The position numbers were made by a program, and so were the translations under genes. The notes beneath the pieces were generated by a model. The model had not been told where the DNA came from. It was given only the letters and a program-made list of their open reading frames with translations, and ran no database searches. From positions 558,001 through 622,000 of the forward strand of contig NZ_JADCJZ010000001.1 in assembly GCF_014982725.1 (NCBI RefSeq): a stretch of 64,000 nt of DNA. The letters are read 5' to 3'. Shown here in pieces: positions 9,853 to 37,217 of the stretch. The DNA comes from Thermophilibacter gallinarum. GTDB taxonomy: Bacteria; Actinomycetota; Coriobacteriia; Coriobacteriales; Atopobiaceae. How positions within the stretch are numbered: the stretch's first letter is position 1; the number at the start of each line of letters is the position of its first letter.

Positions 9853-10169
9853 GGGGGCCTCCTTGTGGTTGCCCCTCGATTGTAGGCGAGAAGGGCGACG
9901 GAAACCTGTGAGGCGGAGTTGCGTCGTCGCCGGCGGCAAGGTCCGCCGCGAGTTCTTGGCGCGTCCTCTGCGCCAAGATGTCTGAGCGCCGGACCTTGCC
10001 GCCGGCGGCGGGGCGAGCCGTGCGTTTCGCGACCGTTTCCGGCGCGCGTCGCGCGGATGGCGGGCGAGAAACGGGCGCGTGGCGAGCGCGTAGCGAGTTC
10101 GTCTCGCTTTTCCCGGTGCCCGCCCTCACGGCCGTAGACTGCCCCTTGGAGTCGAACGAGGGGAGTCCC
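9853..10169. other. Divergent gap between polA and gltB
   Basis: 317-bp region without a credible gene. It must hold the promoters of polA (leftward) and gltB (rightward). Its main visible feature is the long hairpin at 9928-10007. An open frame continuing upstream from gltB crosses the hairpin but has no ribosome site and no conserved content. Confidence 0.6.
9928..10007 (+). repeat. Core-type hairpin element, copy 1
   Basis: Perfect 18-bp outer arms, CGCCGGCGGCAAGGTCCG at 9928-9945 and its complement at 9990-10007. Between them is a 44-nt core: CGCGAGTTCT, an inner stem TTGGCGC/GCGCCAA, then TGTCTGAGCG. Three further copies of this core (11.5, 24.8 and 24.9 kb) have different outer arms. 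No T run follows, so it is not a standard terminator. Confidence 0.9.
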
Positions 10170-14825
<4,656 letters not shown>

Positions 14826-21466: not shown

Positions 21467-21742
21467 GCGTCGCCCCTCGCCCTCTGCCGCTGCCCCCCTT
21501 TGAGGGTATGTACACTGTTGCAACTTTGATTTTGTGCGTGGTAAGCGCAAACCAGCAGGTAGAGCGCTTGTCGAGAAGAACATCAATTTTGAAGCAGTGT
21601 ACATACCCGGAAGGGGAAGGGGGGGACAAAAGGAGGGGCAAAGGAGGGCGCGGCAGGGGTTTGCGGGCGCTCGGAGCCGCGGTATCGTTCATGCCCGAAC
21701 GGGGTACGTTTACAACCGTTGACCAACGAGAGGGGAGCGGAG
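21467..21742. other. Gap after rpsA
   Basis: About 275 bp without a gene. It is dominated by the nested palindrome at 21495-21616, then G-rich sequence leading to the start of the next gene. AT-richer sequence at 21700-21720 (GTACGTTTACAACC) may hold that gene's promoter. Confidence 0.5.
21495..21616. repeat. Nested palindrome with long private arms
   Basis: The left arm (21495-21531) and right arm (21580-21616) are complementary over ~37 bp with several mismatches; the best block is GGGTATGTACACTG (21504-21517) against CAGTGTACATACCC. The interior holds a second stem, AAGCGC/GCGCTT. The arm also contains TACACTGTTGCAAC, an exact 14-nt match to the uvrB promoter region. Confidence 0.85.
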
Positions 21743-24071: not shown

Positions 24072-24712
24072 GCGCGGGATCGCAGACGGGCGGCGACCTC
24101 GCGCTCGCCCTCCGGGATGTCGAGAAGGACTACGGCGCCGTGCGCGTCCTCGAGGGCGCGAGCGCGAACTTCGAGCCGCTTCGCCCGCACGTGATCATGG
24201 GACCCTCCGGCGCGGGCAAGACTACGCTGCTGAGGCTGCTCGCCGGGCTCGAGCGGCCGGACGCGGGTGAGGTCATGCGGGGCGCGGACGTGCGGCTGGG
24301 CATGACGTTCCAGGAGGACCGACTCTGCGAGAACCTCACGGCCACCGCGAACATCCGCCTGCCGCACGGGTATCTTCCCGACGAGCTGCTCGAGCGCTTC
24401 CTCGCGGAGGAGCGGGCGGCGATGGAGGCCTGCGGCCTGCCCGTCGACGCGCGGCCCGTGCGCGAGCTCTCGGGCGGCCAGCGGCGGCGCGTGGCGATCC
24501 TGCGCTGCGTGCTGGCCGACGCGAACACCCTGCTCTTCGACGAGCCGCTCAAGGGCATGGACGAGAAGACCGTCGACGCCGTCATGGCCTTCGTCGGGCC
24601 GCTCGTCGCCGAGAGGACCGTCCTGTGGGCCACCCACGACGAGCGCGAACTCGCCTTCTTCGAGAACCCCGTCCTCTGGCGCGTCGAGGACGGCCACGTG
24701 TCCACCTGTTAG
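24068..24712 (+). CDS. ABC transporter ATP-binding protein, NitT/TauT-like
   Basis: 214 residues. Walker A GPSGAGKTT (~residue 41), signature LSGGQRRRVAILRC, Walker B TLLFDEPLKGMD, switch His in ATHDERE. It is shorter than most members and has no C-terminal regulatory domain. GTG at 24068 overlaps the permease TGA (GTGA) and is preceded by GGGAGG. Energises import with the two upstream gene products. Confidence 0.88.
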   Translation: MSAGSQTGGDLALALRDVEKDYGAVRVLEGASANFEPLRPHVIMGPSGAGKTTLLRLLAGLERPDAGEVMRGADVRLGMTFQEDRLCENLTATANIRLPHGYLPDELLERFLAEERAAMEACGLPVDARPVRELSGGQRRRVAILRCVLADANTLLFDEPLKGMDEKTVDAVMAFVGPLVAERTVLWATHDERELAFFENPVLWRVEDGHVSTC

Positions 24713-24716
24713 GTCC

Positions 24717-24942
24717 GGCGGGGCAACATACCCCATCTGCTCACCTGCGGCCCACGCGCGCCGACATACCCTCCCCGCTCGAACAGCTTCTCCGCACCTT
24801 CGGATGCGGAGAAGAACTCGCGGATGAGGGTATGCCGGCGCGCTTTCGAGCTCGTGGCGGGGCAACATACCCCAGATGCGAGTTCTGCAGGCGCGTCCTT
24901 TGCGCCGAAGCTGTCCGAGCAGATGGGGTATGTTGCCCCGCC
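24717..24942. repeat. Composite array of two core-type hairpins (copies 3 and 4)
   Basis: A 24-mer containing GGCGGGGCAACATACCCC occurs at 24717-24740, again with a 2-base swap near its end at 24856-24879, and as a perfect inverted copy at 24919-24942. Core copy 3 (GCGAGTTCTGCAGGCGCG.. at 24877-24920) sits in the second hairpin. A first hairpin, arms GCGCGCCGACATACCCTC (24756-24773) / complement (24826-24843, one mismatch), carries core copy 4 in the opposite direction, with inner stem CTTCTCCGCA/TGCGGAGAAG. Confidence 0.92.
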
Positions 24943-25008
24943 GCATCGCCGATCCGCCGCGCCGGCGCATGTGCGATGATGGGTCAACGGTCTAGGAAGG
25001 GGGTCGGG

Positions 25009-25614
25009 GTGTACACGGTGTTTCTCGCTGGGGGGACGGCGTCGGGGAAGTCGACGGTCGCGCGCGAGCTGGAGCGGCTTGGGGCGTGGCGCATCGACCT
25101 CGACGAGCTCTCGCGCGCCGTGCTCGCGCCCGGGGAGCCCTGCGTGACGGAGGTCTGCGCCGCGTTTGGCGACGACCTCGTCGACCCCGAGACCGGGGTG
25201 CTCGACCGCGCCCTTCTCGCCCGTCGCGCCTTTGCCGACGAGTCCTCCGCCGAGCTGCTCGAGGAGATCGAGCTCCCGCACATCCGCGCCATGCTCGCCC
25301 GCATGCTCACGTCCGGCATCTGCGGGCAGCACGAGCCGGCGTGCTGCGTGGTGGAGGTGCCGCTGCTCGACCGGGTGGAGTCGATGGTCGACCTCGCCGA
25401 CGAGGTCGTGGTGGTGGCCTGCCCGCTCGAGGTGCGTCGCGAGCGGGCGCGTGGGCGCGGCATGGACGTGGGGGACTTCGACCGGCGCGTGGCGCGCCAG
25501 CCCTCCGACGAGTACCTGCGCTCCCACGCGACGACCGTGATCGACAACACGGGGGACGAGAGGGACCTGGTCGCGCGGGTCCGCGCCTGGTGGGACGCGC
25601 ATGGCTGGGCGTAG
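25009..25614 (+). CDS. coaE: Dephospho-CoA kinase
   Basis: 201 residues. Last step of coenzyme A synthesis, phosphorylating the 3'-hydroxyl of dephospho-CoA. P-loop AGGTASGKST (residues ~7-16), the acceptor region IDLDELSRAVL, and CoaE-like ELPHIR and VVEVPLLDRVESMVDLADEVVVV segments, then the lid RRERARGRGM. The GTG at 25009 follows AGGAAGGGGG. The next gene starts within its last codons. Confidence 0.9.
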   Translation: MYTVFLAGGTASGKSTVARELERLGAWRIDLDELSRAVLAPGEPCVTEVCAAFGDDLVDPETGVLDRALLARRAFADESSAELLEEIELPHIRAMLARMLTSGICGQHEPACCVVEVPLLDRVESMVDLADEVVVVACPLEVRRERARGRGMDVGDFDRRVARQPSDEYLRSHATTVIDNTGDERDLVARVRAWWDAHGWA

Positions 25615-37068: not shown

Positions 37069-37087
37069 CCCCCGTCGCCGTTCGGAG

Positions 37088-37182
37088 AACCCGTCCCGTG
37101 TACCGGTCCGCAGCCGCGAAACCGGTACACGGGGCGCAATCTCTCAGCCCATACATCAGCCCACCGGTACACGGGGCGGGTT
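37088..37182. repeat. Private repeat cluster before uvrA
   Basis: AACCCGTCCCGTGTACCGGT (37088-37107) matches the reverse complement of 37163-37182 at 19 of 20 positions; a second inverted copy ACCGGTACACGGGG lies at 37121-37134. One forward and two inverted copies of a word not seen elsewhere in the window. Confidence 0.85.
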
Positions 37183-37217
37183 TTCCCGGACGGGCCGCCC
37201 GACCCTAAGATCGTCCT

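Follow-up and report, generated by a model that had tools for sequence, protein, structure and literature searches.

In the window (the whole 64,000-nt stretch of Thermophilibacter gallinarum DNA analysed here), an ABC-transporter ATPase gene, ending at 24712 (final part 24704-24712, stop TAG at 24710-24712), and coaE, encoding dephospho-CoA kinase (25009-25614; PF01121, E 2e-32), are both on the plus strand and flank a cassette of palindromic sequences. We detected a perfect inverted repeat, with 24716-24742 being the reverse complement of 24917-24943 (27 nt, with 174 nt between), which encloses two long hairpins, H1 and H2, with opposite cores. By estimate, a perfect 27-nt inverted repeat within 250 bp is expected by chance far less than once per 1e6 stretches as long as the window. 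Folding of 24710-24950 with RNA parameters gave -158.6 kcal/mol against -96.9 +/- 4.7 for shuffled sequences (z -13). Intrinsic terminators or T-runs and sigma-70 promoters were looked for in the ABC-coaE interval and none was recognised, and the Rfam search of the block returned no family at the gathering score and chance matches only below it.

H1 (24756-24843, plus strand; 51 bits, E 9e-9 with the covariance model R1 described below) has a B-type core with a paired CTTC/GAAG apical base. Its core, 24777-24821 on the plus strand, reads GCTCGAACAGCTTC...GAAGAACTCGC, and its arms (24756-24773 and 24826-24843) are complementary at 17 of 18 positions. H2 (24856-24942, minus strand; 79 bits, E 6e-15) has an A-type core (...CTTC-stem-TGCAG...), located at 24878-24920 on the minus strand and reading GCTCGGACAGCTTC...TGCAGAACTCGC. 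The two oppositely oriented cores of the original prediction were thus confirmed, as was the exact inverse relation of the two borders, over 27 nt instead of 24. The right border (24917-24943, minus strand) is the outer arm of H2. The left border had been taken as part of the first hairpin; it lies outside the H1 arms and is a free-standing third arm copy (24716-24742, plus strand), a partial one, carrying the H2 core-strand 5' arm up to ...CATCTGCTC and stopping four bases into the H2 core. It is followed on the plus strand by ACCTGCGGCCC (24743-24753), which resembles 24704-24712 (compare ACCTGCTAGGCCC in G003) and is a probable duplicate of the ABC gene end. The H2 left arm (24856-24879), predicted to be a copy with swapped bases, does differ from the left border at 2 of 24 positions (AGAT for ATCT); these two bases coincide with a mismatch bubble in the H2 stem kept in every H2 ortholog examined, so the difference is mostly structural and does not represent new mutations.

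Two further palindromic regions were observed in the window. At 37084-37186, between two genes, ACCGGTACACGGGGCG occurs three times in alternating orientation, as another hairpin-forming repeat. At 21496-21616, there is an imperfect 53-nt inverted repeat with GAGGGTATGTACACTG; GAGGGTATG is common to it and the H1 arm, and this may be chance.

H1 and H2 are members of a palindromic repeat family of Thermophilibacter (Atopobiaceae) that is apparently undescribed; a search of the accessible literature for papers on palindromes in Olsenella or Thermophilibacter found none. The apical core is conserved and asymmetric (GCTCRRACAG...AACTCGC). Its pattern has 8 exact copies in the genome of the window (G000), against 0 for a reversed control pattern, and is present in 27 of the 31 Thermophilibacter genomes compared, many of them drafts or assembled from metagenomes. 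When 84,980 species genomes were scanned, the core was detected almost only in records named Olsenella or Thermophilibacter and in unnamed Atopobiaceae. Five matches elsewhere, in an archaeon, Chloroflexi, Desulforhopalus, and two others, lack complementary arms (arm scores of 2-4 against 9-37 in the family) and are chance matches. Model R1, built from 23 copies, matched all 31 genus genomes (1-32 matches per genome, 26 in G000), with weak matches in 13 other genera at E no better than 6e-11. In the window it has four matches: H1, H2, a copy between the divergent genes polA and gltB (9922-10013, minus strand, 77 bits), and a copy in frame inside gltB (11520-11622, minus strand; model match 11524-11618, 90 bits).

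The copies are single or form facing pairs, several of them adjoining gene ends, and in each of the 22 pairs found within 260 nt the two copies are facing. By the two core classes of the script, and with loci gathered mostly via A-type cores, 17 of the 22 are A/B pairs, three are B/B (coaE of one clade), and two are A/A. Both A/A pairs involve a TCCT/TGCGG variant and, if this is counted as a third type, unlike pairs make up 19 of 22. A composite transposon was considered for copies that lie in inverted orientation at a distance of 3.3 kb in several genomes; the idea was dropped, since such copies occupy conserved gene loci, one example being the end of an anaerobic ribonucleotide reductase gene.

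The region upstream of coaE was compared across the genus, as the original prediction had proposed, and the 226-bp block did not behave as an intact invariant unit: its content and orientation vary. The order H1-H2' was detected in G000, G003, G011, G016, and G017, the inverted order H2-H1' in G015, G023, G008, and G021, and a one-hairpin form, H2, in G009. Most remaining genomes have neither hairpin or other repeat arrays, and in G018, G001, and G028 the spacer is only 42-60 bp. G003 and G015 are sisters on a well-supported branch, and the cassette of G003 is identical to that of G015, inverted, at 178 of 188 bases (score 344 inverted versus 93 direct). In another clade, G017 versus G021 scored 237 inverted and 146 direct, and G023 is the mirror image of G000, partial arm copy included (316 inverted versus 79 direct). 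Inverted scores were far above direct ones throughout the comparisons of G011/G016/G017 with G021 and of G000/G003 with G015/G023, and given the well-supported branches the inverted state needs at least four changes. The partial arm copy is absent at the orthologous place in G003 and G015 and inverted in G023. Since these two close relatives lack it, and since ACCTGCGGCCC beside it in G000 resembles the ABC gene end, 24716-24742 is an addition, probably made with the H2 arm as template. A nested insertion had been suggested for the arrangement, and nothing points to one element inside the arm of another; the template-switch product suggested as the other option fits the partial H2 arm copy, its absence in the close relatives, and its mirroring with the whole 226-bp arrangement in G023.

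Other repeat arrays were seen in the ABC-coaE spacer of G013 (L049), G024 (L050), and G030 (L051), of G026 (L054) and G019 (L055), and of G006 (L063). Their units are many GACAAGGGCGGCG in two opposed blocks, or TTCTTCTCGGC, or GCCACATATCCGG.

The part common to the copies is the core with about 7 inner arm bases, and the outer arms, 20-30 bp long, are copy-specific. In the arm alignment 94% of cells are paired, pairing collapses when the arms are slid by one column, and changes on both sides affect 201 cells, compared with 62 after shuffling. At arm positions 6-22 of 104 distinct copies, we counted 1685 Watson-Crick pairs, 23 G-T, and 60 other mismatches (95% paired). Between orthologs there were 644 double Watson-Crick versus 271 single changes, and runs of 4 adjacent double changes occurred 14 times against 3.2 expected, in comparisons that share ancestry and hence are not independent. 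At some loci, for instance downstream of the anaerobic ribonucleotide reductase gene, nearly the whole arm differs on both sides among species. At one locus the left arm in G030 is that of one relative while its right arm is that of a second; judging by these arms, G030 is a half-converted (unconverted) intermediate. Selection for a perfectly paired hairpin could be an alternative source of the double changes.

The fold is very stable and copies are next to gene ends at several loci, as would suit a structural RNA, a 3'-UTR stabiliser or bidirectional terminator under selection for base pairing in the transcript. Helices under selection as RNA would be expected to accept G-U much more readily than other mismatches. 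Here G-T accounts for just 1.3% of the arm pairs and for 28% of the cells that are not Watson-Crick, showing no such tolerance, and therefore the arm pairing points to DNA-level pairing or templated copying. With, in addition, no T-run terminator, no Rfam match at the gathering score, a copy in frame in gltB in both orientations, and another between divergent genes, we find the structural RNA explanation improbable.

The gltB element is located between the GATase_2 and central domains (residues about 515-550). It was detected in 11 of 28 genomes, in plus orientation in eight and in minus orientation in three (G000, G009, G019), with a half element in G011; linkers without the element in other genomes are 30-75 nt. 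Both orientations were likewise found at 5-6 of the compared single-hairpin loci. Because the gltB arms are not alike in the two orientations, separate arrivals at a single site may account for some of the flips. Empty sites were detected at three loci (A, B, and C; in G024 and G003), and at a fourth G030 is nearly empty. Neither arm is present at the three empty sites, so that a copy seems to arrive or leave whole, and no target-site duplication is apparent there; an empty site may be the loss of a whole hairpin instead of the pre-insertion state. This bears on a further explanation, in which the core was inserted into pre-existing palindromes, or the target flank was duplicated inverted on insertion, and the arms are host sequence. 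At gltB, conserved coding sequence left of the site is indeed complementary to the right arm's outermost 6-7 nt. The empty sites without either arm disfavour this reading, to which we give very little credence.

This gltB linker also holds, in frame, a second, unrelated palindrome (TGTCAGG/CCTGACA, TTGACA/TGTCAA) in G001 (L168), G013 (L155), G029 (L159), and G011 (L167), and in G011 this palindrome seems to replace the left half of the core element. With a second palindrome type at this place, the linker would be a hotspot.

Taken together, the locus holds a facing hairpin pair and a partial third arm copy of a REP/BIME-like family, and we consider it probable that template switching between inverted repeats lies behind the arm pattern, the inversions, and the extra arm copy. 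Inferring from the pattern, replication would meet a hairpin and the polymerase would switch template between the inverted arms. Copying of one arm onto the other would produce the coordinated arm changes; inversion of the loop or of the whole cassette would produce the flips at coaE, gltB, and other loci; and a stretch of arm left behind as an extra copy would account for 24716-24742. We prefer this explanation because it covers arms, flips, and third copy without a new enzyme. In yeast, template switching at inverted repeats makes the arms alike and turns the spacer around, coding sequence included (PMC8604942), and in RNA genes, Actinobacteria included, it yields multi-base compensated changes and loop inversions (PMC8794818). 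The same kinds of change are seen here, in the setting of a dispersed repeat family; the spacer inversions in yeast genes are of 2-5 bp only (PMC8604942), whereas here cassettes of about 190-226 bp flip repeatedly. Core conservation and the spread of copies to new loci fall outside template switching. Our best guess is that the family is mostly selfish or neutral and that its core is kept by a putative binding or mobilising factor.

In another explanation, the repeats are moved and flipped by an enzyme of their own (RAYT-like HUH transposase or site-specific recombinase), which would recognise the folded core, REPIN style, arm identity being secondary. It would agree with the facing pairs as in REPINs, the presence/absence polymorphism, the genus-wide conservation of the core, and the Y1 transposase (RAYT-like) genes in 28 of the 31 genus genomes (1-6 matches each). 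However, sequence and model searches of about 28 RAYT genes with about 1-1.5 kb of flank detected no family member nearby; G002, G004, and G013 are without a RAYT match yet have 10, 4, and 18 copies, and G020, with one RAYT, has 1 copy. The outer arms are also not common to the copies, and we regard this explanation as unlikely. It is doubtful, too, that the facing A/B pair is cut out, inverted, and put back by a putative dedicated enzyme recognising the asymmetric folded core, with both arms built anew at each new site; if true, the family would be a class of mobile elements whose centre is constant and whose ends are regenerated.

The sole Y1 transposase (RAYT-like) match in G000 (C2:479406-479639, L192) is short, covering model positions 7-84 in a 128-aa open frame, and is apparently truncated. 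RAYT neighbourhoods hold a different palindrome family. Beside RAYT-like genes, 27-bp inverted repeats CTTGACAAGGGGACAGTCCCTTTGTCA (L186:1024-1127 and L196:2225-2328) are a candidate cognate repeat of those transposases.

REP, BIME, and REPIN sequences are palindromes with a GTAG or CGTC tag (PMC3733652, PMC3116915), and REP heterodimers of unlike units have been described (PMC3733652). The family shares with them short dispersed palindromes, mostly outside genes, single or in inverted dimers, as in the 22 facing pairs; its copy number, to be set against theirs, is 1-32 per genome. It differs in that the core is conserved and the arms vary, instead of a conserved stem, and in arms of 20-30 bp, most GTAG-family REP stems being 6-9 bp. 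In the aligned copies no constant outer end was seen on which an unpaired GTAG or CGTC tag might sit, and none of the about 28 RAYT loci is flanked by a copy within about 1-1.5 kb, as a cognate RAYT would be.

MITEs have conserved terminal inverted repeats and a target-site duplication, while here the arms vary and no duplication is apparent. Rickettsia palindromic elements (RPE) are palindromic repeats found between genes and in frame within protein genes. The family is like them, by general description only, in occurring between genes and in frame in gltB, and unlike them in involving one protein gene so far, in its locus-specific arms, and in belonging to a different phylum. Intrinsic terminators (a hairpin followed by a T-run) and known structured RNAs (an Rfam model match) differ from it in these features. 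Phase-variable invertible segments are similar as short segments between inverted repeats in both orientations; here, however, the neighbours are ABC-transporter genes and coaE with no adjacent recombinase gene, no promoter was recognised inside, and the variation seen is between species only.

Known dispersed bacterial palindromes are recognised by their conserved stems, and the Thermophilibacter family reverses this rule with a conserved centre and rewritten stems; REP motif searches would therefore miss it, and families with a constant core and free arms may be common. In gltB the copies represent a dispersed repeat in frame in a protein gene, in either orientation. Across 31 species, several dozen orthologous hairpins preserve traces of arms made alike, of arms converted by half, and of loops or cassettes turned around, and they would permit a quantitative test of template-switch hairpin evolution in bacteria.
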